Part shown: piece after piece, positions 12,146 to 27,230 of the stretch
How the letters are laid out: each line of letters opens with the position of its first letter
How positions within the stretch are numbered: position 1 is the stretch's first letter
NCBI GenBank assembly: GCA_013152755.1
Contig: JAADFR010000058.1
Span: 1-34,400 of the forward strand
DNA: 34,400 bases
Source: Alphaproteobacteria bacterium
GTDB lineage: Bacteria; Pseudomonadota; Alphaproteobacteria; Sphingomonadales; Emcibacteraceae
Reading direction: 5' to 3'
Position numbers and translations under genes: made by a program
Notes under the pieces: model-generated
Seen by the model: only the letters and a program-made list of their open reading frames with translations
What the model was told of the DNA's origin: nothing
Database searches by the model: none

Positions 12146-13204
12146 TTAAATCCTTTTAAACAGAGGAGAACGCTTGTCCCCGGTTCCGTCCGCCTTGCTC
12201 AGGAATTTCTCACAGTAAATATCATTCTCAAACAGACGGCCCTTCATAAGTGCCCGGATAGAGGCCTCTATCATGGGCGGCGGCCCACAGAGGTAGGCCT
12301 GATGCCCGGCGAAGCTACCGTCAAAAAAGCGCTCCGCAGCCTCATGAACGAAACCTGTTTCCCCGTCCCAGTCATCCCCGTCCTTCTTATCGGACAGAGC
12401 CGGGATATAAGCGAAACTATCATGTTTTTCCGCAAGGGCCGTGAAATAATCCTGATAATACAGATCGGCCTTTGACCGGACCCCGTGGAACAGGGTCAGT
12501 TTTTGCCCGTATCCATCCGCCAGCAATTCGTCAATCATGGCTTTGGGACTGGACAGTCCCGTCCCGCCTGCGATGAATATCATCGGTTTATTCTGTGATT
12601 TCCGGACAAAGAAATGGCCATACGGGGCCGAGAATGACAAGGCATCGCCCTCTGCCAGCTTACCATGCAGATAGCTGGTCCCCTTACCCTCCGGCACCAG
12701 CCGCACATGAAGTTCCACATGATCCGCCTTGTCCGGTGAATTGGCGATAGAAAAGGCGCGGGGGCCATCCACACCGGGAATATTGAGCTGAATATACTGA
12801 CCCGCCTGAAATTCTATTTCCTCGTCCAGCGAGATAATGATCTTTTTCACATCCGAGGTCAGGTCGGTAATTTCAGAGACCGTTCCCGTATAATCACAAA
12901 TGGGCAGATATTCGGCGTCGTCGTCTTCTTCAATATCCGCCTCTATGACCACATCACTTTCCAAAGTGCAGACACAGGCCAATACCTTGCCATCATCCCG
13001 CTCGAAGTCCATGAGGGCAAAAGGAGACGCATCACCAATATCCACATCACCCTCCACCACATCCACCTTACAGGTGCTGCACAGACCGTGATTGCACTGA
13101 TAGGGGATATAGATACCGGCGCGCAGGCAAGCATCCAGAATTGTCTGGCCTTCTTCGACCTCAATCACTTCACCGATGGGTTCTATGGTAAGCTCGTAAC
13201 TCAT
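12146..13204 (-). CDS. dmpP: Phenol hydroxylase reductase component (P5)
   Basis: NADH-dependent reductase that feeds electrons to the di-iron hydroxylase. Domain order is N-terminal [2Fe-2S] ferredoxin (Cys37, Cys42, Cys45 and Cys77), FAD domain with RAFSIAN at 149-155, and NAD domain with AGGTGLSSP (212-220) and CGPPPM (306-311). Length is 352 residues, like DmpP (353). Its ATG overlaps the last base of the preceding DmpO stop codon (TGATG), which indicates translational coupling. Confidence 0.97.
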   Translation of the reverse strand: MSYELTIEPIGEVIEVEEGQTILDACLRAGIYIPYQCNHGLCSTCKVDVVEGDVDIGDASPFALMDFERDDGKVLACVCTLESDVVIEADIEEDDDAEYLPICDYTGTVSEITDLTSDVKKIIISLDEEIEFQAGQYIQLNIPGVDGPRAFSIANSPDKADHVELHVRLVPEGKGTSYLHGKLAEGDALSFSAPYGHFFVRKSQNKPMIFIAGGTGLSSPKAMIDELLADGYGQKLTLFHGVRSKADLYYQDYFTALAEKHDSFAYIPALSDKKDGDDWDGETGFVHEAAERFFDGSFAGHQAYLCGPPPMIEASIRALMKGRLFENDIYCEKFLSKADGTGDKRSPLFKRI

Positions 13205-13563
13205 CAGCTGTGAGAGCCCGCGATACCTTCAAGCCCCGGCGTCCAGAAACGGATCAGGGATTTATGGCCAAGGCCGTTATCGGCAAGGCTTTTGCCCAAG
13301 TCCGGGGTAAGATCCGCCCCGTCCAGCGTCCATTTCACCGCGTCCCAGTCAATTTTCTCAAAATCCGGGTGCTTGTTATATACGCCGGGCAAAACCTCCT
13401 GCACCAATGCAGCGAACGGCATTTCAGGAGGCAGAGGCAGGCAGACCGGGGCGCAGAACAGCAGATGCTGTTCCCAGTTAATATAGGTCAGTTGATTGCC
13501 GTGGAAATTTTCCACTTTGTCCAGTGGCTCAAATTCATATTTCCCGATGGAAGTTACAGACAT
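13204..13563 (-). CDS. dmpO: Phenol hydroxylase P4 component
   Basis: Small subunit (119 residues) of the multicomponent phenol hydroxylase oligomer. The family-typical YINWEQHLLFCAPVCLPLPP segment lies in the first half (about residues 27-46). In the crystallised relatives this gamma subunit completes the (alpha-beta-gamma)2 hydroxylase. It overlaps the reductase gene by 1 bp and follows the large subunit gene by 33 bp. Confidence 0.96.
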   Translation of the reverse strand: MSVTSIGKYEFEPLDKVENFHGNQLTYINWEQHLLFCAPVCLPLPPEMPFAALVQEVLPGVYNKHPDFEKIDWDAVKWTLDGADLTPDLGKSLADNGLGHKSLIRFWTPGLEGIAGSHS

Positions 13564-13596
13564 CTCATCAATCCTTATTCTAAAAATGTGTTATAT

Positions 13597-15114
13597 TCAG
13601 GCTTTCTTGCGATGGGCTTGCCATTCGTCCCAAAGCTTCTGATCGGGCGAGCCCTTATATTCCATATTGTCCGCGCCCAGATTGAAGTTGTACCACTTGA
13701 GGACATCCGGCACCTCGGCCCCGCCGCAATTGCCCTGATAAATCTGATGAACCGGCAACCAGGCCTGAACATATTTTTCAGGTTCGTAATCAAAGATGTC
13801 CTTACAACCGAGGGAACAAGTGTGATATTTATCGTCCTTATATTCAGAGACTTCAAAGGATATGGTTGTCGGATCGTCCATATCGGTAAAGCCCATGGGA
13901 ATTTGGCAAACCTGACACAGCATGGGCAGGGTATCATTGTAAAAACGCCGCCCGGCCTTTTCTTCCTTATCAAGATACTCAAGGCGTGGCCGATAATATT
14001 TATCGAAAGTATTCGGATATTTCTCTGACAGCCAGTCCAGCTCTTCCTTCTCCGGAATCCATGTATGGAAGGCCGCCGCATGGGTATAGTTATAGAAAAT
14101 ATGCCATGCCTGATGGCTGAGATGTTCAGCTTCCTTGGTGGCAATATCGGCATATTTCGGCGGCTTGATACCATAACGGGCTAGATCCGCAAACAAGGCA
14201 CCGCCCGCCTCGGTAAAGTAAATGTCCCATGCCTCACGCCATGACATCACCCGCTTGGGCAACATATAGTCCATCATCATGGCCACAAGGGTCAGCATAC
14301 GGGTCCCGCGCCAGAACCATTTATCCATCCAGCGCTGAACGATAGGAATATTACGTTCGTCCTGCTCCAGCATGAATTTAATCACTTCCAGCCCAAGGGT
14401 CATATGACGGGCTTCATCGGACTGGGCCGAGAAACCAAAGGTCACCGTTGCCATATCCCCGTTAAAGGCCGCGCCGGACATGAACGGCACAAACAACAGA
14501 TTGGTCAGCACATATTCAAAGGCAAATGAAATAGAGGTCAGAAACTCAAACGGTCCGGCAGTCCGAGCATCATCAAAGAATGATTTTGGCACCGACAGAT
14601 ACCATACCCGGTCATGCATATGAGGGGCGCTGTGCAACCCATCAAAATATTTATTGTAATGGCTCATGGAATGAACCTGAGTCTGTACGTGGCGCAATTC
14701 ATCAATGGCCTGCATCTGACAGGCAACCCGGGGACCAACGCCGCGGAATTGGCGGCCCACATGAGTAAACCCGCGCGCGGCCTGATATTCCAGCGGCGAG
14801 ACACCAGTCAAGAACAGCTTGATCGCATTCACATAGCGCGCATCAGTGATACCCAGATGCCCGTTATTCTGGGCAAAGCTGTCAATCACCGCATAGAGCT
14901 TTTTCTCTTTTTCCGACTGGAACTTCCAATAGGCATCCATGGTCAGGCGAAAGGGGTCTTCCCAGCCTTCCCAGTCATGAATGATAATGCCCTCATAATT
15001 GTCATAGGGAAAAACCTTATCCATGGGTTGATAGGTGGTATCCCAGCCAAGCCCACGGGTGAGCATGGAATAACGTTGTTTGATCCCCAGTTTCTTTTTT
15101 CTCTTCTCGGCCAT
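13597..15114 (-). CDS. dmpN: Phenol hydroxylase large (di-iron, P3) subunit
   Basis: Catalytic subunit of the soluble di-iron monooxygenase that converts phenol (and methylphenols) to catechols. It has 505 residues (DmpN 517). The carboxylate-bridged di-iron ligands are complete: Glu109, Glu139 and His142 (DELRH) in the first half, Glu200, Glu234 and His237 (DEARH) in the second. A C-terminal cysteine-rich segment (CQVC and CSLGC, about 399-435) is the metal-binding domain typical of phenol hydroxylase alpha subunits. Its position between M and O keeps the canonical gene order. Confidence 0.98.
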   Translation of the reverse strand: MAEKRKKKLGIKQRYSMLTRGLGWDTTYQPMDKVFPYDNYEGIIIHDWEGWEDPFRLTMDAYWKFQSEKEKKLYAVIDSFAQNNGHLGITDARYVNAIKLFLTGVSPLEYQAARGFTHVGRQFRGVGPRVACQMQAIDELRHVQTQVHSMSHYNKYFDGLHSAPHMHDRVWYLSVPKSFFDDARTAGPFEFLTSISFAFEYVLTNLLFVPFMSGAAFNGDMATVTFGFSAQSDEARHMTLGLEVIKFMLEQDERNIPIVQRWMDKWFWRGTRMLTLVAMMMDYMLPKRVMSWREAWDIYFTEAGGALFADLARYGIKPPKYADIATKEAEHLSHQAWHIFYNYTHAAAFHTWIPEKEELDWLSEKYPNTFDKYYRPRLEYLDKEEKAGRRFYNDTLPMLCQVCQIPMGFTDMDDPTTISFEVSEYKDDKYHTCSLGCKDIFDYEPEKYVQAWLPVHQIYQGNCGGAEVPDVLKWYNFNLGADNMEYKGSPDQKLWDEWQAHRKKA

Positions 15115-15127
15115 GATCTTCTCCCTG

Positions 15128-15400
15128 CTATATGTTCCAGCTCAATTCAAAATAATCATCTTCCTCATCGACATTTCCGGCGATACTGATGATGCTCAAA
15201 TGCAATTCCTGTACGTCCCACTCCCGGCCAAGCAATTCCTCCACCGTTTCCTGTTTGACAATCAGGCGGCCATCACAGTCAATTTTGACCATGGCCGGAT
15301 AGAGGTTAATGGTGGCCTTCGGATTATCTTTTTCGATGGCGTCTATGATGGGGCGGGCGTCGTCGTTATTCTGTAATGTTATTGATACGGTTCTGCTCAT
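15128..15400 (-). CDS. dmpM: Phenol hydroxylase coupling/regulatory protein (P2)
   Basis: Cofactor-free effector protein (90 residues, same as DmpM) that binds the hydroxylase and couples electron transfer to substrate oxidation. The ORF matches the MmoB/DmpM family in its TVSITLQNNDDARPIIDAI start and in an acidic C-terminus ending ELSWNI. It is located between the L and N subunit genes with gaps of 9 and 13 bp. Confidence 0.95.
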   Translation of the reverse strand: MSRTVSITLQNNDDARPIIDAIEKDNPKATINLYPAMVKIDCDGRLIVKQETVEELLGREWDVQELHLSIISIAGNVDEEDDYFELSWNI

Positions 15401-15409
15401 GACAGTCTC

Positions 15410-16408
15410 CTATATTTCCAAACCGGACTTTTTGGCCCGTTGTGTTATCTCTGTGCGAATTGACGTCATGGCTTCATCGGCCTTGTCCCCCAAAACATGG
15501 TGGGCAATGGGTGTGAAGGCCTCAATGGCAAGATCGGTCCATTTAACGGCCCATCCTGATAAAAGCGCCGCATTCTCGGCACTTTCCGCCGCCGTCACTT
15601 TCAACAGATGGTCCATCCAGCGTTTTTCATCCTTGCCCCAGTCCTGCATAAATTCATTCAGCATGGACATGGCGGACCCGCCGTGAGCCTGTCCGGCCTC
15701 ATCAAAATGCTGATAGAAAAGCGGGAAAACCACGCCGTCCATGCATAAGTTCTGGGCCACCAGAAGCTCAAACCAATCCTCTACCACAAAGCTGTCTTCA
15801 AGCATTTTACGCACGCCCTGCCAGCGGTCACTGTCCAGCCAGTCCGCTTTGGCCTGATCCAGACTTTTACCCGTACTGTCATCCAGAAGCAGCCCAACCC
15901 GGCTGATGATCTGGGCGATTCCCAGACGGTCCATGGCGGCGAACAAAGCGACCTGACTGATCGCGGTGCCATAGGCCTTGTCCGAACAATCGCAATTGTT
16001 CATATTGGCGCCCCATTCAAAATGCCTGAGCGGGAGGATAAAATCCCTGACCATCTGCTGCCACTCAGCATCCATGAGGGTCATCATGTTGCTCTTGTCG
16101 ATAAATTTGAAATGACTTTCCTCAGCCTCCATCATTTTATGGCGGGCCATGGTATAGGTGCCATAATAAAGCTGACGCGGGTCATTAAAGCTGTACCAGT
16201 CTTCCATCTTGATGGCGGTAAGCGACTTGTCATATATTTCGCGCTCTGGATTCCAGGTCGGGCGATAATGGAAATTTACCGTTGGCTGAAGATCCCAGGT
16301 TCCCTCCTGATAGCGGGTTGCCGGTTTATCACCGCCAAGCCGTTTGGCAATATGGGCATAGGTATGCCGCCGAGGTTGAATAACATTCGTTTTAATATCA
16401 AAACTCAC
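15410..16408 (-). CDS. dmpL: Phenol hydroxylase P1 (beta) subunit
   Basis: Beta subunit (332 residues) of the di-iron hydroxylase; structurally ferritin-like but without iron ligands. Family features include RRHTYAHIAKRLG near the N-terminus, YDKSLTAIKMEDWYSFNDPRQ and WGANMNNCDCS in the middle. It overlaps the K gene by 4 bp (ATGA). Confidence 0.96.
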   Translation of the reverse strand: MSFDIKTNVIQPRRHTYAHIAKRLGGDKPATRYQEGTWDLQPTVNFHYRPTWNPEREIYDKSLTAIKMEDWYSFNDPRQLYYGTYTMARHKMMEAEESHFKFIDKSNMMTLMDAEWQQMVRDFILPLRHFEWGANMNNCDCSDKAYGTAISQVALFAAMDRLGIAQIISRVGLLLDDSTGKSLDQAKADWLDSDRWQGVRKMLEDSFVVEDWFELLVAQNLCMDGVVFPLFYQHFDEAGQAHGGSAMSMLNEFMQDWGKDEKRWMDHLLKVTAAESAENAALLSGWAVKWTDLAIEAFTPIAHHVLGDKADEAMTSIRTEITQRAKKSGLEI

Positions 16409-16701
16409 TTGAAGTCTCCCAACTGAATAATATTTGTTTTCTCGTGTAATTTGGGCTTCTCACCCCCGGATAGCCGATTATATTCATACCGTATTTGCGG
16501 CACGCATATGATTTCCGCCACGTGGTTAGTTTCGCAAAATTCCTTGAATGCCGGATAAGGCATGACCAGCTCGATGGTCAGTTCCTCACAGCCCAGCGTA
16601 TAATCAAATTCCAGAAATTTAGCCTTTCGTATGCCAAACACGCGAACCGTCTTGCGGTATTTTTGCAACCGGTCAAGGTCATGTTGTTTGTTATGTGCCA
16701 T
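16405..16701 (-). CDS. dmpK: Phenol hydroxylase assembly protein (P0)
   Basis: First gene of the phenol hydroxylase operon. DmpK-type proteins are not part of the active enzyme but help assemble the di-iron hydroxylase. The 98-residue product starts at the ATG at 16701 (MAHNKQHD), preceded by GAGGAAAG; family features are KTVRVFGIRKAKFLEFDY and a C-terminal NRLSGGEKP. An in-frame ATG at 16731, created by a tandem repeat in the leader, would add ten residues, and the open frame continues to 16788 through the promoter. Confidence 0.93.
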   Translation of the reverse strand: MAHNKQHDLDRLQKYRKTVRVFGIRKAKFLEFDYTLGCEELTIELVMPYPAFKEFCETNHVAEIICVPQIRYEYNRLSGGEKPKLHEKTNIIQLGDFK

Positions 16702-16753: not shown

Positions 16754-16769
16754 AGCAAAGAGCGTGCCA
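16754..16769 (-). promoter_or_regulatory. Sigma-54 promoter of the phenol hydroxylase/meta operon
   Basis: On the minus strand TGGCAC-N5-TTGCT matches the sigma-54 consensus, with GG at 16768-16767 and GC at 16756-16755. Transcription would start near 16743, about 40 nt before dmpK. Sigma-54 dependence fits the DmpR-type activator encoded at 25443-27230. Confidence 0.88.
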
Positions 16770-16892: not shown

Positions 16893-17525
16893 TTATAAAA
16901 TTTCCAATTTGATCATTTCATCAATACCAGGAAAACTTGCGGGCAAAACTGTCGCAAATGAAGAACGCCGCTTACATCTCTCAAACCAGTTTTTTAACTT
17001 TCCATATGTCTTCCCAAGGGTCAGACCATAAACCAATGCAAGGGTGAATCGGGGAATGAGCGCGCAGTCGGCCACAGAAAAATCCGGACCGAAATAATCC
17101 TGATCCCCAAGCTGTAATGTGAGCATATCCAGTTCCGCCTGCCATGCTTTATCTATGGTATGTTGCAGGTCACCATCCGCTTTGCCGTCCCGAACCTGTT
17201 TGATATAGGGGAATAAAATTTTCCCCAGTCGATTATCGCTATAGCTGTGAATTTGACGGATTTTTGCCCTTTGCTCCGGTGTGCCCGTCATAAGGCTGGT
17301 CTCAGGAAATTTATCGGCCAGATATTCGACAATCACCGCAGATTCCCACAGCACCATATCCCCATCAATCAGCACCGGCACTGTACCATTAGGATTTAAG
17401 GCCACCACATCGGGATGTTTTTCGCCCAACTTTACCGAAATCTCCGACACCTCAACGCCCGCTTCCCGCAGGAAAAGGCGTACTTTCCAGCAAAAGGGGC
17501 AATCCGGGCGGTGATAGAGTTTCAT
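16893..17525 (-). CDS. Glutathione S-transferase family protein
   Basis: Cytosolic GST of 210 residues. The N-terminal thioredoxin-fold domain (about 1-78) begins MKLYHRPDCPFCWKV, with CPFC at 9-12 as in glutaredoxin-like and omega/beta GSTs, then NPNGTVPVLIDGD and WESAVIVEYLADKFP, the glutathione-binding segments. The helical domain carries FSVADCALIPR. It starts 10 bp after the HCCA-isomerase-like gene and is likely co-transcribed with it. The substrate is unknown; detoxification of reactive quinones or semialdehydes, or thiol maintenance, would suit the setting. Its last codons carry an enhancer-like box for the next operon. Confidence 0.92.
   Translation of the reverse strand: MKLYHRPDCPFCWKVRLFLREAGVEVSEISVKLGEKHPDVVALNPNGTVPVLIDGDMVLWESAVIVEYLADKFPETSLMTGTPEQRAKIRQIHSYSDNRLGKILFPYIKQVRDGKADGDLQHTIDKAWQAELDMLTLQLGDQDYFGPDFSVADCALIPRFTLALVYGLTLGKTYGKLKNWFERCKRRSSFATVLPASFPGIDEMIKLEIL
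16909..16924. promoter_or_regulatory. DmpR/XylR-type upstream activating sequence
   Basis: TTGATCATTTCATCAA keeps the TTGAT-N6-ATCAA core of DmpR/XylR enhancer sites and is centred about 173 bp upstream of the predicted start, the usual distance. It lies inside the 3' end of the GST gene. The AT-rich DNA between it and the promoter (16789-16908) could be bent, for instance by IHF, although no clear IHF match was identified. Confidence 0.65.
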
Positions 17526-17535
17526 GGCACGGCCC

Positions 17536-18141
17536 CTATATCTTCCGCAATCTTAAATCATGGAGATGATCTCTCAGGCTGTCTATGCGGTCATTGCCCC
17601 AGAAAATCTGATCATCCACCACAAAGGTTGGCACGCCGAACACGCCCTTGACCTGAGCCTCTGCCCAATTCAGCGCCATCTGTTTCAACAGGGCCTCATT
17701 ATTACAGGCCCGGCTGATGGCACCCCGGCCAAGGCCAATTTCTTCCCCTACTTCCAGTAAGACCTCAAGCTCGCCAATGTTGCGCCCTTCGGCCCATTCC
17801 TTGCGCATCACTTCCACCACAAAGGGTTGAAGCAGGCCTTCTTCCTCGGCCACCAGTGAAATGGCCCCGGCCAATGAAGGGTCCGTATCAATGGGCGGCG
17901 GAACAAAGGGAATGCCCATCTGCCGACAATGGCGGGAGACATCCTGACGCACCAATGGAATTTTGATTTTCGCCCGCTCCGGCGCAGACCGTCCGGACCA
18001 GCCCCCAAAGGGCTTCCAGATCATTTTGGTATGATAGTCCTCAAAAATGGCAAACATCCGTTTGGAGGCCAGATAGCAATAGGGGCTTCTGAAATTAAAG
18101 AACAGATTAATTTCTGCGGGAACCAGTGGGGTGCTTGTCAT
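17536..18141 (-). CDS. 2-hydroxychromene-2-carboxylate isomerase/kappa-GST family (DsbA-like)
   Basis: Protein of 201 residues in the DsbA-like HCCA isomerase/kappa-class GST family. The start is taken at the ATG at 18141 (AGGA 8 nt upstream); a longer frame would run through the terminator. Family features are FFNFRSPYCYLASKRM at the N-terminus (Cys22 where many members have Ser) and GVFGVPTFVVDDQIFWGNDR near the C-terminus. NahD acts in naphthalene breakdown, but no naphthalene genes are here, so a glutathione-linked isomerase or redox role is as likely. It is paired with the GST gene downstream. Confidence 0.88.
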   Translation of the reverse strand: MTSTPLVPAEINLFFNFRSPYCYLASKRMFAIFEDYHTKMIWKPFGGWSGRSAPERAKIKIPLVRQDVSRHCRQMGIPFVPPPIDTDPSLAGAISLVAEEEGLLQPFVVEVMRKEWAEGRNIGELEVLLEVGEEIGLGRGAISRACNNEALLKQMALNWAEAQVKGVFGVPTFVVDDQIFWGNDRIDSLRDHLHDLRLRKI

Positions 18142-18159
18142 TTTTGATGTCCTGTTGTT

Positions 18160-18193
18160 AAAAAAACCGGGGGCGGAAGAACCCAACCCCCGG
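18160..18193 (-). terminator. Intrinsic terminator after the DUF1329 gene
   Basis: On the minus strand CCGGGGG, a 13-nt loop and CCCCCGG are followed by seven T residues. The 7-bp all-G/C stem plus U tract is a textbook Rho-independent terminator, placed 16 bp after the DUF1329 stop and before the HCCA-isomerase-like start. Confidence 0.88.
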
Positions 18194-18209: not shown

Positions 18210-19520
18210 TTATTTACCCGTCACGCGCATATTCTGTACGGTGAATTTCTTGCGCGGGCTGAGCTTGCTATCAATCTGGCCCTTGAACTGGCCCGTGGTG
18301 CAATGGGCACCCTGAACATCCAGCATCATGAAGGAATCATCGATGGATACTCCGGAGCCTTTGTTCTTGGCCAAGTGATAATCAGGATGGGCCTGACCAA
18401 TGATAAAGGTTTTCCACAGCTCACCCTTGCGGTCATAAATAACCGTCCGGGGCAAAGTGAAGGTTTCCGCATCCACATAATGAATCCGCTTGCTGATGGG
18501 ATGGTTCGGATCCACAGGAACCGATTCCAGCACATAAACCTTGCGCAACTGCCAGTCCACATTGGGGAAACAACCGCCCTTGCCCCCATACTCGACAAAC
18601 TGATAGCCATCGGACATTTTATATTCAGTGCTGAGTTCCTGCTCATTATGCTTATAGAAAGGCATCATGACATTTTTGGTGCCTTTATAGGTCCAGGTCA
18701 TATCGGAAATCCGGCCATTATAGCCTTCGAAATCTTCAATCATCAGGTCAGAGCCCAGGAAGCTGTCGGTGATCTGACCCGTGGCCAGCCGCCGCACCCG
18801 GCGCTGAAAGCCCAGATACAGCCACGCATTGTCCCGCTTCAGATCATCTTCATAACGATGGATCAACAACTGGGTATTCTTCACATCGAACGGTTCCAGA
18901 ACCTGCACATAAATCGCCCGGAACAGGTTGGCCGGATTTTTCGGCAGGTCGGGCAGGGGCTCATCATTCACCCGATGCTTTAGATTGAGGAAATGGAAGT
19001 TGAACTTCAACGTCCGCTCAACCTTGGCCGAATTCAGATCACGGAATTTCCAGTAGAAAGGATAAACCGCCCCGCTATCGCCCCAGTTATAGCCGTATTT
19101 ATAATTCCAGGCTAGTTTTTCACCGGCTTTGGGATCATCAAGACTTGGTTCCGCCGGAAAAGGACGGCCAGAGATAAAGCCTTTGATGTCACCGGTTTTA
19201 TCGCCCAGAACAGCCTTGTTCAGATTGGCTTTTGTGGCTTCGATATAGGCCTTGTTCAATTCAAAGGCCATGGTGTCGGTCACTTTCATTTCCGTCCAGC
19301 CATCCTTGATGAACTGATACATGCCTTCATCCAGAATATCCTTGAATTGCTCCACATTGGACTGGTTGATGGTCATGCCGCTTTTCAGACCTTCATGCTG
19401 TGGAACGGACGCCTTATAGGGATAAAAGGAATTTTCCACATCCTTCAGATCGGCGGCGGAAGCCGTGGAAACAATTCCCATAGCCACACCTGTTAACATA
19501 TATGTCAGTAATTTTCTCAT
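18210..19520 (-). CDS. DUF1329 envelope protein
   Basis: Exported protein of 436 residues. A signal peptide is evident (MRKLLTYMLT..., likely cleaved after ASA at residue 22). The rest matches the DUF1329 family, including the WNYKYGYNWGDSGA segment and aromatic-rich beta-strand regions. DUF1329 genes regularly sit beside DUF1302 genes in proteobacterial clusters for hydrophobic compounds, as here; the biochemical role is unknown, with outer-membrane or periplasmic handling of a lipid-like or aromatic substrate being the usual suggestion. It is the last gene before the terminator and follows DUF1302 by 26 bp. Confidence 0.9.
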   Translation of the reverse strand: MRKLLTYMLTGVAMGIVSTASAADLKDVENSFYPYKASVPQHEGLKSGMTINQSNVEQFKDILDEGMYQFIKDGWTEMKVTDTMAFELNKAYIEATKANLNKAVLGDKTGDIKGFISGRPFPAEPSLDDPKAGEKLAWNYKYGYNWGDSGAVYPFYWKFRDLNSAKVERTLKFNFHFLNLKHRVNDEPLPDLPKNPANLFRAIYVQVLEPFDVKNTQLLIHRYEDDLKRDNAWLYLGFQRRVRRLATGQITDSFLGSDLMIEDFEGYNGRISDMTWTYKGTKNVMMPFYKHNEQELSTEYKMSDGYQFVEYGGKGGCFPNVDWQLRKVYVLESVPVDPNHPISKRIHYVDAETFTLPRTVIYDRKGELWKTFIIGQAHPDYHLAKNKGSGVSIDDSFMMLDVQGAHCTTGQFKGQIDSKLSPRKKFTVQNMRVTGK

Positions 19521-19546: not shown

Positions 19547-21523
19547 TTAGAAGCGATAGCGCAAAGTGACTTGAATTTCGTCTTCACGGCTGGCCATACC
19601 AATCGGCCCGGCCCGGAAACGTCCCAGTGGTTCAAACCCGCCAAGGCCTACAGAGCCAGCGGCAAAGGGGTTGGCGTGAAAAGGTGTCGCCGTAAACGGA
19701 CCCCAGGGGTTACAGGACCGGCAGTCATCAAACTTGCGCGGGCCTTTACCAAATTTAAAGTTGGCCGCCACAATCAGACGCCAGCTGTCACTGATCAACC
19801 AGTCCACAGACGGCGATATAACCGCCGATCCCGCCCGGAAGTCATAGGCAGACAGAATTTGTGGGCTGAGCCGGTTTTGCATGTACCAGCCCTTGAACAG
19901 GAACGTCATGATCCAGTTTGATTTCCAGTCCGGAATACCGGCCTTGGTAAAACCCGGAACGCCCGCCAATGTGGCCGGTGTATCTTGCAGCTCATGGTTC
20001 AGGATATGCTGACCAAATAACTGAGCCGACAAGAGGAAGGCTTTGTCCTTGTTCAGGAAGGGAATGAAGGTATCCCGGTCCCAACCGATGACATAACGAA
20101 CGACATCATTCTTGGAAAACAGCTCTGGCCGCAGGGTATTGGCAAATTCCTCACCGGTGGTATAGGCCGCTTCAACCCGGAAAACGGATTTGATGCTGTC
20201 AACATAGAAATCTGCAGACCCGCCAAACAGATGTATGCGCGGAAAGGCTATATCAAAGGCGATGAGATAAGGCCAGGGCTTTACCTCGCCGGTAAAGTTA
20301 TTCAGGGCCGCCGGTCCGGCGCTGCCGCCGCGCAATGACGGCAACTGACTTAGATAAGTCAGATAGTTCAGGGAGAAACCGACACCATTCTTGACGCCTT
20401 CAACCTTGAAGCCGATCTGGGTATTGCCAATTTTCCATTTTGGCATTTGAGCACTGCGGATACCAATGGACCCCGGCGCGAAGTCCGTGGCCGCAAGACC
20501 CGTGGTCCCCGGCACCGGAAGCCCGGCAAAGTTGGCCACAGTACAGCCATTATCCCAACAGTTTTTCATGCCGCGAAAGAAACCGCCCGCGCCAAGTATC
20601 TGATAAGGCGTACCGCCCTGACCCAGTGAATTGGGCCGGAATTTATCAAAATTCCACACCAGATTCAGGTTCAGGTCATCAAAGCTGCCCACGGCACCCA
20701 TACGATAATCCATATTCAATATCCATTGGGGAATCCGGATGTCTTCCAATTCGTCATAGATATTCTGGCGCGAGAAATCCACCGGATTGATCACATCCAG
20801 AACCCGGAACAGATCTGTACGGCCCCAGACGACTTGCTGGCGGCCCAGACGGATATTCAGCTCATGGCCATTTGAAAAAGGAATACTGCCATCAATATAA
20901 GCTTCACGCAGGAAATCCATACGGCTGTTAAATTCCGGAAAGCGCAGATTATCAAGGCTCAGGTCCAAATAGCCCGGAATACAACCGCGATTATCAATAT
21001 CGCAGGGACGAACCGGCACTCCGAAGGACACACCGCCCTGATCATTGGCATGGGAATCACTGCCCAGAACGATCAGCCCGCTGTTGGGGTTGGCCGCCGT
21101 ATCAAAGCCAAAGAAGAAAGCGCCTGTAGACACCAGACCACCGCCGTGCGGCACAGAGGGCGGGCCAGCGGAAAAGGTACTTTGCAGGTTGATCGCGCCG
21201 CCCGCATTGCGGCCAAAGTCACGCTTATTCAGGTCATAGACCCCGTCATAAGACCCGCGAAAAGTCACATTGAAAGACAATTCGGAAAAGGTGTTTCCTG
21301 TATTGAATTGCTTGACCAGTTCAAGCTGTACCGTGTTGCGGAATTTTACCAGCCCCACATCTTTACGCAGGAAAGTGGCATTTTCCAGAAAGCCGCTCCA
21401 TTCCAGCGTGCCGTCCGCAGACGTTCCGGCATAGGCGCCGGACAATCCGGTGACCGACAAAGCCGCCGCCATGGACAAGGCCGCAGCCTTTGATCCCAGT
21501 TTTAAATATTTTTTCTTAGTCAT
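19547..21523 (-). CDS. DUF1302 outer-membrane beta-barrel protein
   Basis: Protein of 658 residues with a signal peptide (MTKKKYLKLG..., cleavage near AYA at 32) and a C-terminal LRYRF ending in phenylalanine, the mark of BAM-inserted outer-membrane barrels. The body has many alternating strands and the DUF1302-type GRQQVVWGRTDLFRVLDVINPVD stretch (about 230-255). Likely a porin-like channel for a hydrophobic compound (inference). AGGGAGG precedes its ATG, the strongest ribosome binding site in the cassette. It lies 55 bp after the RND transporter gene. Confidence 0.92.
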   Translation of the reverse strand: MTKKKYLKLGSKAAALSMAAALSVTGLSGAYAGTSADGTLEWSGFLENATFLRKDVGLVKFRNTVQLELVKQFNTGNTFSELSFNVTFRGSYDGVYDLNKRDFGRNAGGAINLQSTFSAGPPSVPHGGGLVSTGAFFFGFDTAANPNSGLIVLGSDSHANDQGGVSFGVPVRPCDIDNRGCIPGYLDLSLDNLRFPEFNSRMDFLREAYIDGSIPFSNGHELNIRLGRQQVVWGRTDLFRVLDVINPVDFSRQNIYDELEDIRIPQWILNMDYRMGAVGSFDDLNLNLVWNFDKFRPNSLGQGGTPYQILGAGGFFRGMKNCWDNGCTVANFAGLPVPGTTGLAATDFAPGSIGIRSAQMPKWKIGNTQIGFKVEGVKNGVGFSLNYLTYLSQLPSLRGGSAGPAALNNFTGEVKPWPYLIAFDIAFPRIHLFGGSADFYVDSIKSVFRVEAAYTTGEEFANTLRPELFSKNDVVRYVIGWDRDTFIPFLNKDKAFLLSAQLFGQHILNHELQDTPATLAGVPGFTKAGIPDWKSNWIMTFLFKGWYMQNRLSPQILSAYDFRAGSAVISPSVDWLISDSWRLIVAANFKFGKGPRKFDDCRSCNPWGPFTATPFHANPFAAGSVGLGGFEPLGRFRAGPIGMASREDEIQVTLRYRF

Positions 21524-21578: not shown

Positions 21579-23969
21579 TCAAGCTGCCGACTTTGCGTGT
21601 TTTTCTTCAATCACGCCGTCAACAACTTCAATGTCAGTGATAAATTTTGGTTTAAAGATTGTGATCCAGCTGGGCACCACGAACAGCGCCGCCGCCATGT
21701 TAAAGACCAGCATCACAACCAGAAGCAGAGCCGCATCGGACTGGAAACGCAAGTCCGACAGGAACACCCACATAATCACCCCAAGGATCAAGGCCCCTGC
21801 GGTTACACAGACCGCAAGGCCCGTGGTACTGATGGCGCGGATAACCGCTGCCTGAAGCGTATCGGTTTTGAGAATTTCTTCCCGGATACGGTCCATAATA
21901 TAAATAGAATAATCAATACCAACCCCGATCCCGACCGCAATGATCGGCACCGTATTGACATTGATGCCAATTTTCATGAAACCCATATAGCCATAGCTGA
22001 GGATGGTCGCAAAAGACATGGCCAGAAACATCATCCAACCCGCATGAAACGATCCATAAAAGAAGGTCACGAACAGGAAAATCAGGAGTAGGACAGATGG
22101 CACAACGATGGCATTGGTTTTGAACACGGCCTCATTAATGGCCGCCGTAACGCCGATGATGCCCCCCGCCAGATGAAAGCTTAAGCCCTCCACCGTATCG
22201 CCCTTTTCCGCGATCCAGCTTTTGATCATATGAATGGCTCGGCGAATGGTCTCACCCTGATGGTTCTTGTAATAAAACACCATATTGGCGTCGGTTTCTT
22301 CCGGATTGACAAATTCCTTGAGCGCACCGGGGATCGGGCTAGAGGCCATATAGGCGAACATCAACCCGCCCACATAAAATTCATCGTGCGGCACCTGATA
22401 AAAACGCGGGTCATTGTTATGGAGCAGGCGATTAACCTGCTTCACCAGATCGGGCAGGCCCTTTGCCCCGCCCAATTCCGGGTCATCAAGCATATAATTC
22501 TGAAAATCTTCCAGCGCCTTAATCACTTCCGGTTTTTTCAAACCGCCCTTTTCCTCTGTTCGGGCGATGATATAAAGCTCCTCTGACCCGGGAAAGCTGG
22601 TGTTAATGGCGGTGGAGGACAGATTATAATCATGGTCGGGATAGAGCAGAGGACTGCCGGGTTCCGCCTCACCAATCTGAACTGACGAACTGAAATAACC
22701 GCCAATGGCAAACAAGCCAATCGTTGCGATCAATACGCGCCGCGCACTTTTAGGGTTGGCCACCAAGGCTCCAATCTTGGGCAGAAATCTCCGGATCCAG
22801 CCATGGCGGATTTCCGCCCGCTTTGGCTGTGGTAAAATCGACAGCAACATGGGCACTAAAATCAGCACATTCAGGATCACACATATGGCCCACAAGGACG
22901 CATAATAGGATAATTTGGTATTAATGGGTATCGAACCCAGCGAAATCAGCAACAGACCCACCGCGTCCGATATAACCCCCAGTGATCCGGGGCGGAACAG
23001 ACTATCAAAGGTGGTGCGCGCCGCCTGACGGCCACTGCCGCATTTGACGAACTCATCATAATAACGTTCCACAAGCTGAATACCGTGGGACATGGCCCGC
23101 GCCGAGATCAGGAAGGGGATCACTAAGGTCAGCGGATCAAGGTTATAGCCCAGCAATGACAAAATCCCGATGCCCCATATTGACGATATGGCAATACCCA
23201 TCATGGGGATCAACACCCCATATAGCCGCCGGAAATATATCAGCAACAGGGCGAACATAAAGACGATGGTGAACATGAAAATCTGAATGATCTGCTGAAT
23301 ATAGGTATAGACCCAGCCAACCAGCATGGGCTGTCCGGTCACATGGATTTTAACCCCCGGCACCTGCTCCTTGGCCCGGAAAGCCTGAATCTCGTTAAAG
23401 GTCTTTTCATAATCCAGCGCCCCCTCATTAAGCTGTCCCTTGATCAGGGCAGACTTCAGGTCAGGCGACACCATCAGGCCATAAACCCGCGGATTGGCCA
23501 AAACCGCATCCCGCATCTCGGCCATTTCAGCATCGCTCAAAATGGGCTTTTTGGTCGGATCATAATAGGGCTCTGAAACAATGGAGCCTTCCTCGGACAG
23601 CCATGTCTTGCGGGACGTGCGGTGGGTAAGGCTGGTCACCAGGTTATGGTTGATCGCCGGCAGGCTGTCCACATCCTGTGTCAGACGATGAATAAGGGCC
23701 AGAATATCATTATTAAAGATAGTCCCCTCTTCCACCTCAACCCCGACAATCACCACATTGGCCCCGCCAAATGTATCGCGGATCTCGTTATGAAGCTGAA
23801 TATAGGGATGTTCCTGCGGCAAGAGGTCGGCGAAGTCGGAATACATTTTAACGCCCGGGATCTGCGCGGCAAAAAAGATGGTAATGACCAGCATTAATCC
23901 CAAAAAAAGCTTCGGGTAAGCAAATAGATGGTCATCTATACCTTTAAGAAAATGGGTGAATTTCGACAT
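21579..23969 (-). CDS. RND-superfamily (MMPL-type) transporter
   Basis: Inner-membrane transporter of 796 residues with the RND layout: one N-terminal membrane helix, a large periplasmic loop starting with YSDFADLLPQEHPY, a group of helices, then the same pattern repeated. The second membrane block holds GIGVGIDYSIYIMDRIREE, typical of MMPL/HAE3-type exporters. It is about 250 residues shorter than drug-efflux AcrB-type pumps, fitting the MMPL class. Its neighbours (YCF48-like lipoprotein, DUF1302, DUF1329) form a recurring envelope cassette thought to move lipids or hydrophobic molecules between membranes; the substrate and direction are not known. Confidence 0.93.
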   Translation of the reverse strand: MSKFTHFLKGIDDHLFAYPKLFLGLMLVITIFFAAQIPGVKMYSDFADLLPQEHPYIQLHNEIRDTFGGANVVIVGVEVEEGTIFNNDILALIHRLTQDVDSLPAINHNLVTSLTHRTSRKTWLSEEGSIVSEPYYDPTKKPILSDAEMAEMRDAVLANPRVYGLMVSPDLKSALIKGQLNEGALDYEKTFNEIQAFRAKEQVPGVKIHVTGQPMLVGWVYTYIQQIIQIFMFTIVFMFALLLIYFRRLYGVLIPMMGIAISSIWGIGILSLLGYNLDPLTLVIPFLISARAMSHGIQLVERYYDEFVKCGSGRQAARTTFDSLFRPGSLGVISDAVGLLLISLGSIPINTKLSYYASLWAICVILNVLILVPMLLSILPQPKRAEIRHGWIRRFLPKIGALVANPKSARRVLIATIGLFAIGGYFSSSVQIGEAEPGSPLLYPDHDYNLSSTAINTSFPGSEELYIIARTEEKGGLKKPEVIKALEDFQNYMLDDPELGGAKGLPDLVKQVNRLLHNNDPRFYQVPHDEFYVGGLMFAYMASSPIPGALKEFVNPEETDANMVFYYKNHQGETIRRAIHMIKSWIAEKGDTVEGLSFHLAGGIIGVTAAINEAVFKTNAIVVPSVLLLIFLFVTFFYGSFHAGWMMFLAMSFATILSYGYMGFMKIGINVNTVPIIAVGIGVGIDYSIYIMDRIREEILKTDTLQAAVIRAISTTGLAVCVTAGALILGVIMWVFLSDLRFQSDAALLLVVMLVFNMAAALFVVPSWITIFKPKFITDIEVVDGVIEEKHAKSAA

Positions 23970-24024: not shown

Positions 24025-25014
24025 CTAATTCTTGAGGTCCTGCGGGCTGAGCATCCGCACCAAGCCGCCGCCGCCCGCCACCAGAAGCTTGCCATCCGCC
24101 ATGGGCAAAAGAGCCCGCAGATAGCCAAAACCCAGTTTGGTATCAACCGGTTTCCACGCGTTGCCCGTAAGAACAAGGATTGTCCCCTGCTCCCCCACGG
24201 CATAGGTTTCTCCATTCACCACACAAATGTTATAGATCGGCGCCTTGGTGCCTGTTTCCTGACGCTGCCAGTTGCGGCCGCCGTCTGTTGTATGAAAGAT
24301 AATGCCCTGAAGTCCGCCAACCCAGCCTTCGTCAGCAGAAGCGAAATAGGACGCCATGGGATAAAATTCATTGGGAATTGCCCCGCCCATCTCCCAGCTC
24401 TTGCCGCCATCACCGGTTTGATAAACTGTCCCGAACTCTCCGGTTACGATAGCCCGGTCACGATCAATGAATTGTATGCGGCTGAACATGGCATCTTCTG
24501 CGATGGATTTATCGGCCCAGCTTTCACCACCGTCACGGCTTTCCATAATCAGGGTGAAGCTGCCCACAACCCAAAGGGTGCCATTTTGATCACAGGTGAG
24601 GTCCAGAACATCCTCTTCGGTCGGGATCGCCTTTGATGTCCAGTTTTCCGCATTAAGGTCTGAGAACCAGACCTTTCGATCCGCATCAAGCGCCACAAAA
24701 CGCCCATCAGGGCAAACATCAATATCAACCAATGTGGGATAGGATACAGCAGTATTACCGGGTAGCGTTTGCCGGTTCCAGCTTTCGCCAATATCATGAG
24801 AGATCAACATAACCCCACGATTACCAACAATGACCATGGCTCTGTCTGATTTCGCCGCAGCCTGATATTGGTCATAGCGGGCCTGTGGTTTGGTCTTGGA
24901 CTCTGTCACACCCGACAGATCCAGTTTCGCCTCACATCCCGTGACCAACAGCATAAGCCCGATCAGTGAAAGCACATGAATCTTCCGATTCCCAAAAGTT
25001 AATCCTGCAAACAA
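24025..25014 (-). CDS. YCF48/BNR-repeat lipoprotein
   Basis: Predicted lipoprotein with a beta-propeller. The frame starts with TTG at 25014, preceded by GGGAG, and gives an n-region with Arg and Lys, a hydrophobic stretch and the lipobox LVTGC (Cys27). A GTG at 24975 with GGAAG upstream is an alternative start but would leave no positive n-region. The mature part has several YCF48/BNR-type blades with GESWNR, GGESWAD, GGKSWEM and GGRNWQR. YCF48-like proteins of this type accompany MMPL transporters and DUF1302/DUF1329 genes. It is the first gene of the cassette. Confidence 0.88.
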   Translation of the reverse strand: MFAGLTFGNRKIHVLSLIGLMLLVTGCEAKLDLSGVTESKTKPQARYDQYQAAAKSDRAMVIVGNRGVMLISHDIGESWNRQTLPGNTAVSYPTLVDIDVCPDGRFVALDADRKVWFSDLNAENWTSKAIPTEEDVLDLTCDQNGTLWVVGSFTLIMESRDGGESWADKSIAEDAMFSRIQFIDRDRAIVTGEFGTVYQTGDGGKSWEMGGAIPNEFYPMASYFASADEGWVGGLQGIIFHTTDGGRNWQRQETGTKAPIYNICVVNGETYAVGEQGTILVLTGNAWKPVDTKLGFGYLRALLPMADGKLLVAGGGGLVRMLSPQDLKN

Positions 25015-25087
25015 TTTCTATACTCCCATAGTCAATAGCGCCTGTTATTTGTGATCAATTTTTTTTCAGGCGTGTTGAGAGCATCAT

Positions 25088-25103
25088 TGCAAAAGCTATG
25101 CCA
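25088..25103 (-). promoter_or_regulatory. Sigma-54 promoter of the envelope cassette
   Basis: The minus strand reads TGGCAT-N5-TTGCA with GG and GC correctly spaced (GG at 25102-25101, GC at 25090-25089). Transcription would begin near 25077, about 60 nt before the TTG start of the YCF48-like gene. Confidence 0.78.
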
Positions 25104-25168
25104 AGAAATTTATTTCATATATAAAGCTTAATTTCTGGTTAAAAACGATTGTTTTACTTGTTAACCTT

Positions 25169-25184
25169 CTGATCGGTTTTTCAA
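25169..25184. promoter_or_regulatory. Weak DmpR-type enhancer candidate
   Basis: The minus strand reads TTGAAAAACCGATCAG, 8 of 10 positions of the TTGAT-N6-ATCAA core, centred about 100 bp upstream of the predicted sigma-54 start. It is degenerate and the distance is short, so it is a candidate only. Confidence 0.3.
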
Positions 25185-25442
25185 GGGTTTAAGCATGTTA
25201 TTGCTTCATACCAATGGCGAAACCTGATCTTGATAATGGATAAGAATAGAGGGCCATACAGAACTTCTCATATGATAAAATTCTAAAATATTTTATTTAT
25301 TAAATTGATTAAATCATAAAATTTTAAAAAATAAATCTTGTAATATTCTGTATTAAATGGCTTATTCTATGTATTAGAAACACATAAAATACGTAATTTT
25401 TTAGCATCCTGCCCAACAAGACAAATGGTGAAGGCCCCTAAC

Positions 25443-27230
25443 ATGCCCAATTCCCATAACAGTTCAGGCCGAGCATCTTTTGGTCAGCCTGAGGATATTA
25501 ACGATAAAATTGACATAATTCCCGGCTTACCGGATTTTCATGATCTGTCTGAACGACTGAAGTTTTCGCCCAAAGATGGCCGTATCTGGCTGGATGATAT
25601 TCGCATGATGATGCTCCATGCCAGTTCCATGGGCGCGTTACGATCCGAGCTTATTGAATCTCTTGGTGTCAACAAGGCCCGCGCCCTCCTGACCCGAACC
25701 GGCTATGTCTCCGGCGCACAGGATGCGGAGCTGGCCTCAAAATTGCGCCCCGGCGCAGACTTTTTTGATGTTTTTTCTGTTGGTCCCCAGCTTCATGCTC
25801 TGGAAGGCATTGTCTCCGTGGAACCCGTCCGGCTGGAAGCCGATGTGGCCAAGGGTAAATTTTACGGCGAATTCCTGTGGCATGACAGTATCGAAGATGA
25901 AATTCATATTGAAAAATACGGCATCGGCACCGAACCCGTCTGCTGGATGCAAATCGGTTATGCCAGTGGTTATACCTCGGTTTTTCTGGGGCGGCCCATT
26001 GTCTATCAAGAAGTTGAATGCCGGGCTATGGGTCATGCCCATTGCCGAATTATCGGCAAGCCCATGGAAGAATGGGACGATATTGAAGAAGATATGGCCT
26101 TCATGCAGCCACAGGCCTTTGCCAATGCGGACACCATATTGAAACCCCGGGAACAGATTACCGTTCTCGACACCCCCCCGCATTCCACCGCAAAAACAGA
26201 ATTTCATACTAAAATTTCCACCAATATGGTTGGCGCTTCTGCGGCCTTCAATGTGGCCTGTCACATGCTGGACAAGGTTGCCAAAACAGAAGCCACCGTA
26301 TTATTCCTCGGCGAATCCGGTGTCGGCAAGGAGATGTTCGCCCGCACCCTTCATCAAATCAGCCACCGCAAGGACGGCCCCTATATTGCTGTGAATTGCG
26401 CGGCTATTCCCGACAACCTGCTGGAATCAGAATTATTCGGCGTTGAAAAAGGGGCTTATACCGGGGCCATTGAATCCCGGGCCGGACGGTTCGAGCGCGC
26501 CGATACCGGCACCATTTTTCTGGATGAGATTGGCACGTTATCTCTGGCCGCACAGGGTAAACTGCTCCGTGTTTTGCAAGAGCATCAGGTGGAGCGGGTT
26601 GGCGGCAAGAAAACCATCGAAATCGACATCCGGGTAATCGCAGCCACTAATGTGAAGCTTAAAGAAGAGGTCAAAGAGGGTCGTTTCCGGGAAGACCTGT
26701 ATTTCCGGCTGAATGTTTTTCCCATTCATATCCCGCCACTGAGAGAGCGCAAGGCGGACATCCCGCTTCTGATCAACCATTTTCTGAAGAAATATGGCAC
26801 CAGCTACCGGAAGAATATCACCGGTTTTACCTCGCGCGCCATCAATGGCTTTCTGAATTACGACTGGCCCGGAAATATCCGGGAATTAGAAAACCTTATT
26901 GAGCGCGGCGTTATCCTTGCCCCCAATGACGGGGCCATTGACCTGTGCCATCTGTTTACTTTTGGTGAGGAAATCACCATCCCGATTTTGGGCATTACCA
27001 AAGACGGAACGGTGAATGATTCCCTAAATGCGCAAGGCGGTGAGAATGCTGCTGACCTGCACCCGGTTGATATAATTGTCGACAGCCTGATCGAACAGAA
27101 TGTCGGGTTAGAGGAACTGGAGAAAAACCTGATTGAAACGGCGGTTAAAAAATCCGGCGGCAATCTGTCTGCGGCGGCCCGCATATTAGGTATAAGCCGA
27201 CCACAGCTAGCCTATCGGTTAAAGAAATAG
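25443..27230 (+). CDS. dmpR: DmpR/MopR-type phenol-responsive sigma-54 activator
   Basis: Enhancer-binding protein of the XylR/DmpR group. The start at 25443 is preferred over 25425 because GAAGG lies 8 nt upstream; this gives 595 residues. Order: N-terminal sensor (XylR_N plus V4R, to about 210), linker, AAA+ sigma-54 interaction domain (about 255-490), Fis-type HTH (572-595, [24 protein letters not shown]). Walker A is GESGVGKE (290-297), Walker B TIFLDEIG, and the sigma-54 contact loop reads GAYTGA (337-342) instead of GAFTGA. With a constant offset of 12, MopR's phenol-binding His106 and Trp134 appear as His118 and Trp146, and its zinc ligands Cys155, Glu178, Cys181 and Cys189 as Cys167, Glu190, Cys193 and Cys201. 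Phenol sensing is therefore well supported. Likely targets are the sigma-54 promoters at 16754 and 25088. Confidence 0.93.

Follow-up and report, generated by a model that had tools for sequence, protein, structure and literature searches.

A conserved sigma-54 promoter probably joins an envelope transport cassette to the phenol regulon in Emcibacteraceae

A regulator of the DmpR/MopR type, predicted to respond to phenol, very probably drives a six-gene envelope operon through a sigma-54 promoter, alongside the dmpK operon for a multicomponent phenol hydroxylase, and the encoded cassette probably clears phenolics or other hydrophobic compounds. Both operons and the regulator gene lie in the window, the whole stretch of 34,400 nucleotides that was analysed (Table 1). 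A first-pass annotation had read TGGCAT-N5-TTGCA before a YCF48-MMPL-DUF1302-DUF1329 operon divergent from a DmpR-type gene, and had held it plausible that this operon shares a phenol-responsive regulon with phenol hydroxylase. The analysis supports this. The box is present, perfect and in the right direction, and the divergent regulator has its full domain set. Further support comes from a UAS-like palindrome common to the dmpK promoter, from conservation in relatives and from co-occurrence in other proteobacteria.

The explanation is built on the box, the palindromes, synteny, conservation, protein domains and sensor residues; its predicted parts are binding, looping, phenol induction and the direction of transport. 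Phenol or a similar compound would bind the sensor domain of the divergent activator. The activator would engage the palindromes at 25320..25264, reach RNA polymerase-sigma54 at 25103..25088 via a DNA loop and open the promoter. It would also work at the dmpK promoter, so that the transporter would be made together with phenol hydroxylase.

Table 1. Coordinates of genes and regulatory sites in the window
Feature	Position	Strand	Evidence and remarks
Multicomponent phenol hydroxylase dmpKLMNOP	12146..16701	-	Catechol 2,3-dioxygenase and meta pathway genes come next
Sigma-54 promoter of phenol hydroxylase operon, TGGCACGCTCTTTGCT	16754..16769	-	Present in 7/7 orthologous loci examined
Third perfect palindrome at dmpK, TTGATGATTTCATCAA	16773..16788	-	Touches the -24 element; among 7 loci only in own genome and G011
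UAS2 of dmpK promoter, TTAATAATTTAATAAA	16875..16890	-	Weak; 34 bp after UAS1, a spacing also found in several relatives
Glutathione S-transferase (GST)-like protein	16893..17525	-	PF13417 2.1e-20; last gene before dmpK promoter; order kept
UAS1 of dmpK promoter, TTGATGAAATGATCAA	16909..16924	-	
DSBA-like thioredoxin-fold protein	17536..18186	-	PF01323 2.7e-31; 23 bp downstream of DUF1329; relatives share the order
DUF1329, LolA-like periplasmic protein	18210..19520	-	PF07044 1.2e-75, PF17131 1.6e-19
DUF1302 outer-membrane beta-barrel	19547..21523	-	PF06980 2.8e-50; AlphaFold model pLDDT 80.8
MMPL/HAE3-like RND inner-membrane transporter	21579..23969	-	PF03176 5.7e-30
YCF48-like (COG4447 type) beta-propeller lipoprotein	24025..25014	-	PF14870 2.8e-24; first cassette gene, TTG start
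Sigma-54 (-24/-12) promoter of envelope cassette, TGGCATAGCTTTTGCA	25088..25103	-	Perfect consensus match and conservation
Candidate UAS2 of cassette, TTTATCATATGAGAAG	25264..25279	-	Weak; 41 bp after UAS1; own-genome site matches 8/12 positions
Candidate UAS1 of cassette, TTTATGATTTAATCAA	25305..25320	-	Centre ~221 bp from -12 GC of cassette box
DmpR/MopR-type sigma-54 activator	25425..27230	+	XylR_N, V4R, AAA+ and Fis-HTH domains; divergent

The minus-strand gene order is YCF48-like, MMPL/HAE3-like RND, DUF1302, DUF1329, DSBA-like and GST-like, with gaps of 10-55 bp. The four genes of the earlier operon are there in order; the operon is longer than was proposed, as the DSBA-like and GST-like genes also precede the next promoter. 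The DSBA-like gene is probably co-transcribed with the cassette. The TTG start of the YCF48-like gene is backed by a GGGAG Shine-Dalgarno sequence and a lipobox (LVTGC), and relatives have TTG or GTG in the corresponding position. For the MMPL protein, the best NCBIfam match was TIGR00921 HAE3 (1.2e-41, below the curated cutoff). A fold search with the DUF1302 model returned generic barrels only (porins, AlgE; query TM-scores 0.25-0.36), so the model supports an outer-membrane barrel and nothing finer.

Twelve genomes (own, genus, family, order) had a true orthologue of the YCF48-like gene. Its neighbours are the same wherever the contig is long enough. A perfect TGGCAYR-N4-TTGCW box stands in the corresponding place and orientation in 10 of the 12 orthologous loci, kept amid intergenic sequence that is otherwise mostly diverged. 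The two loci without a box belong to G001 and G015, which group as sisters in the MMPL tree (L083, L081).

Probably the four proteins make up one path across the envelope, with an inner-membrane RND pump, a LolA-like carrier and a propeller in the periplasm, and an outer-membrane barrel. Most likely, this path rids the membrane of phenolics or other hydrophobic compounds. Export of phenolics or membrane protection is the preferred reading, and export seems likelier than uptake. Phenol crosses membranes unaided, so a dedicated uptake seems less needed. In Castellaniella defragrans, deletion of ameABCD lowered monoterpene tolerance and increased Nile Red accumulation (PMC6394551), which argues against the main alternative: a real box in front of a cassette for the uptake of a hydrophobic substrate or for lipid or membrane remodelling. 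We consider this alternative possible but doubtful. It can draw on Pseudomonas putida, where growth on Tween 20 depends on the homologues PP_0765/PP_0766 and PP_2018/PP_2019, modelled as a substrate transport path (PMC10866462), a phenotype equally in line with uptake and with export. Hopanoid transporters are among the HAE3 relatives (PMC6394551), with a weak HpnN match here, and the predicted outer-membrane barrel of DUF1302 would also suit uptake.

The regulator matched the MobR model with 1.4e-183, below the cutoff of that model. It aligns to the solved sensors CapR/DmpR, PoxR and MopR, and the zinc cysteines are aligned. Cysteine numbers in the DmpR structure paper (PMC7264223) are offset by two from the alignment count; for this reason, only aligned residues are claimed for the pocket. 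In the alignment, His and Trp are kept at DmpR positions 100 and 128, the phenol contacts. These two residues position phenol in DmpR, and the toluene-responsive XylR has a Tyr in place of the His (PMC7264223). Judged by the alignment, the regulator carries a phenol-type sensor pocket with His, not Tyr. The loop that contacts sigma-54 reads GAYTGA instead of GAFTGA, also in the G015 orthologue.

The dmpK promoter provided the model for the binding sites. Upstream regions of dmpK have TTGATNAWWTNATCAA-like palindromes in common, usually two, 34 bp apart. Perfect copies of this type occur only twice in the own genome, both upstream of dmpK. At the additional palindrome TTGATGATTTCATCAA beside the -24 element, the regulator could block or tune the promoter. 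The catechol 2,3-dioxygenase encoded after dmpKLMNOP scored above the cutoff of TIGR03211.

A UAS matrix was built from the dmpK sites alone and scanned over the cassette intergenic regions against 300 shuffles. It finds the cassette UAS1 at 25320..25305; in the own genome, one of the 300 shuffles was as good. Over the ten genomes with a box, the best cassette UAS was equalled by 0-1 of 300 shuffles. The best score was weaker in G001 and G015, with 3 and 11 of 300 shuffles as good. For the second site, an offset of +41 ranks top of 104 offsets over the ten genomes (8.0 versus a mean of 3.5, sd 0.9). XylR/DmpR-type regulators reportedly use paired palindromes at a spacing of 29-42 nt, which equals three or four turns of the helix (PMC6449761). 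The cassette UAS1 lies at about -235, beyond the 100-200 bp usual for such pairs of 16-20 bp palindromes, and UAS2 at about -194, weak in the own genome. A functional enhancer had been suggested between 25160 and 25260. This interval holds no UAS match of 12/16 or better; with the candidate sites at 25320..25264, about 220 bp upstream of the box, the enhancer would lie outside it. A second conserved palindrome is present at ~25150-25165, about 50 bp upstream of the cassette -24 element. It is also found in G006, G008, G011 and G013 and reads GTTTAACTAGTTAAAC in G006 and G008.

The candidate palindromes are also located 100-160 bp before the regulator start, and in G001 and G015, where the cassette box is lost, a degenerate UAS1-like site persists beside the regulator. 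This would suit an autoregulation of the regulator's own promoter, with another bacterial enhancer-binding protein driving the cassette through a real box. We regard this as improbable. A sigma-54 box facing the regulator was present in none of 32 upstream regions, 8 of 10 genomes place UAS1 at 208-221 bp from the cassette box, and the same palindrome precedes dmpK. Activation of the cassette by the divergent regulator is the better reading.

On the minus strand, TGGCAT-AGCTT-TTGCA at 25103..25088 is an exact GG-N10-GC element with no mismatch to TGGCAYR-N4-TTGCW. It is oriented toward the YCF48-like gene, 73 bp upstream of the TTG start (25014), and predicts a transcription start at about 25078. 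In the window, perfect boxes occur only here and at the dmpK site (16769..16754). With two mismatches allowed, the window has 18 boxes versus 22.5 expected, no excess over chance; the weight therefore lies on the exact match, and only exact matches were used. The own genome (2.9 Mb) has 20 perfect boxes versus one for a reversed-pattern control. Nearly all 20 are intergenic, most of them 20-80 bp before an ORF. The genome encodes rpoN, the gene for sigma-54 (E 3.8e-69). A scan of 24900-25500 for sigma-70 promoters found no sigma-70-like site. The cassette box is most probably a true sigma-54 promoter of the six-gene operon. It is hardly credible that the box matches by chance and that some unrecognised promoter serves the cassette instead: the promoter evidence is a consensus and the scan covers limited promoter types, but the 20:1 enrichment, the retention in related loci, the lack of a sigma-70-like site in the scanned region and the recurrence in gammaproteobacteria all oppose it.

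Secreted proteins with PEP-CTERM-like tails, for example VPEPAPLALLGLGLLGLGIMRKRQK, are encoded 28-80 bp downstream of about 8 of the 20 perfect boxes (own-genome loci L049, L054, L059, L060, L061, L064, L065 and L068). This suggests a sigma-54-driven PEP-CTERM regulon.

The least expected detail of the case is a replacement of the cassette promoter in one branch. In G015, a 321-aa LysR-type gene (L040:2442-3407) lies between the regulator and the cassette; its product is closest to the AlsR/BenM/CatM models, below their cutoffs. G001 has a closely similar insert in L039. Both genomes have ATACCCTAAAGGTAT before the cassette in place of a sigma-54 box, which we take to fit the ATAC-N7-GTAT site of CatR/BenM-type regulators. 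At dmpK, by comparison, G015 retains both the sigma-54 box and the palindromes. The LysR form appears as a replacement of the sigma-54 promoter of the cassette.

A broader survey covered 80 MMPL loci from named genomes, with a box test over 73 proteobacterial loci. YCF48-MMPL-DUF1302-DUF1329 is a stable unit across the 80 loci. Where both regulator and phenol hydroxylase are present, 22 of 24 loci had a box scoring at least 11/12 within -400..-40 of YCF48, versus 8 of 49 others. Upstream of the three inner cassette genes, boxes were found in 0/79, 2/78 and 0/73 cases. Carriers include Pseudomonas, Stutzerimonas, Marinobacter, Alteromonas and Paraglaciecola. Fisher tests on the 73 loci gave p-values near 1e-8 to 1e-10. 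In a tree-aware check the box trait was clustered, with only 6 changes, and independent pairs had no power and gave no significance; the Fisher values are therefore not relied on, and the counts are read as breadth of conservation, not as independent proof.

A wider reading stands at about even chances. A DmpR-type activator would co-induce an AmeABCD-like transporter and phenol hydroxylase widely in Alpha- and Gammaproteobacteria, with a distinct spacing of the enhancer sites (41 bp before the cassette, 34 bp before dmpK), and one Emcibacter lineage would have swapped the cassette promoter for a LysR-type switch. Since dmpK kept its own promoter, transporter and enzyme would be uncoupled in that lineage. 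The genomes with and without the sigma-54 switch are a clean set for studying whether and how the cassette contributes to phenol tolerance.

The cassette had been called uncharacterised, which does not hold in view of known systems. In its four domain types it matches the tetrapartite HAE3-RND exporter AmeABCD of C. defragrans (PMC6394551): a DUF1302 outer-membrane protein, DUF1329, a COG4447/YCF48-like protein and an HAE3-type RND transporter, here also encoded together. The likeness is one of domain type. In both cases the genes are linked to a catabolic island that deals with toxic hydrophobic compounds. They differ in gene order, which is DUF1302-DUF1329-YCF48-RND in ameABCD, and in the neighbouring genes, which are for monoterpenes there and for phenol here. 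In P. putida, DUF1302 and DUF1329 proteins likewise act jointly with a periplasmic protein and an efflux-type transporter, but they are encoded in two separate loci and have a Tween 20 phenotype with no phenol link stated (PMC10866462). A dmp cluster with DUF1302 and DUF1329 has been described in Zoogloea (PMC7012976).

In regulation, the sensor shares the XylR_N, V4R, AAA+ and Fis-HTH architecture, the His/Trp phenol contacts and the aligned zinc cysteines with DmpR, PoxR and MopR; it differs by GAYTGA for GAFTGA. In Aromatoleum aromaticum EbN1, the regulator gene likewise lies between a catabolic cluster and the EtpR-controlled efflux cluster ebA326-ebA335. Each of the two has sigma-54 motifs and depends on the NtrC-type regulator together with a phenolic inducer (PMC4630880). 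That system belongs to an anaerobic p-ethylphenol pathway and its control was proven by deletion, whereas control is predicted from sequence here; the likeness is one of arrangement and predicted control. In the phenol regulons of Betaproteobacteria, genes for COG4447, COG1033, PF07044 and DUF1302 are predicted members, under the XylR/DmpR-type AphR in Burkholderia sp. 383 and under AphT (LysR-type) or AphS in others (PMC6449761). Their UAS pairs have the 29-42 nt spacing mentioned above; the present host is a marine member of the Emcibacteraceae (Alphaproteobacteria). LysR control of the AphT type has an apparent counterpart in the two sister genomes, where the LysR form seems to replace the sigma-54 promoter. 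The pairing recurs in related bacteria and has parallels elsewhere, and is therefore real but fairly ordinary. Phenol-type regulators are already on record as controlling such cassettes, and the present case is a well-supported member in another lineage. Through it, a transporter family whose direction and substrate are unsettled gains a defined, predicted inducer, and the reported AphR- and EtpR-type control would extend to Emcibacteraceae and many gammaproteobacteria.
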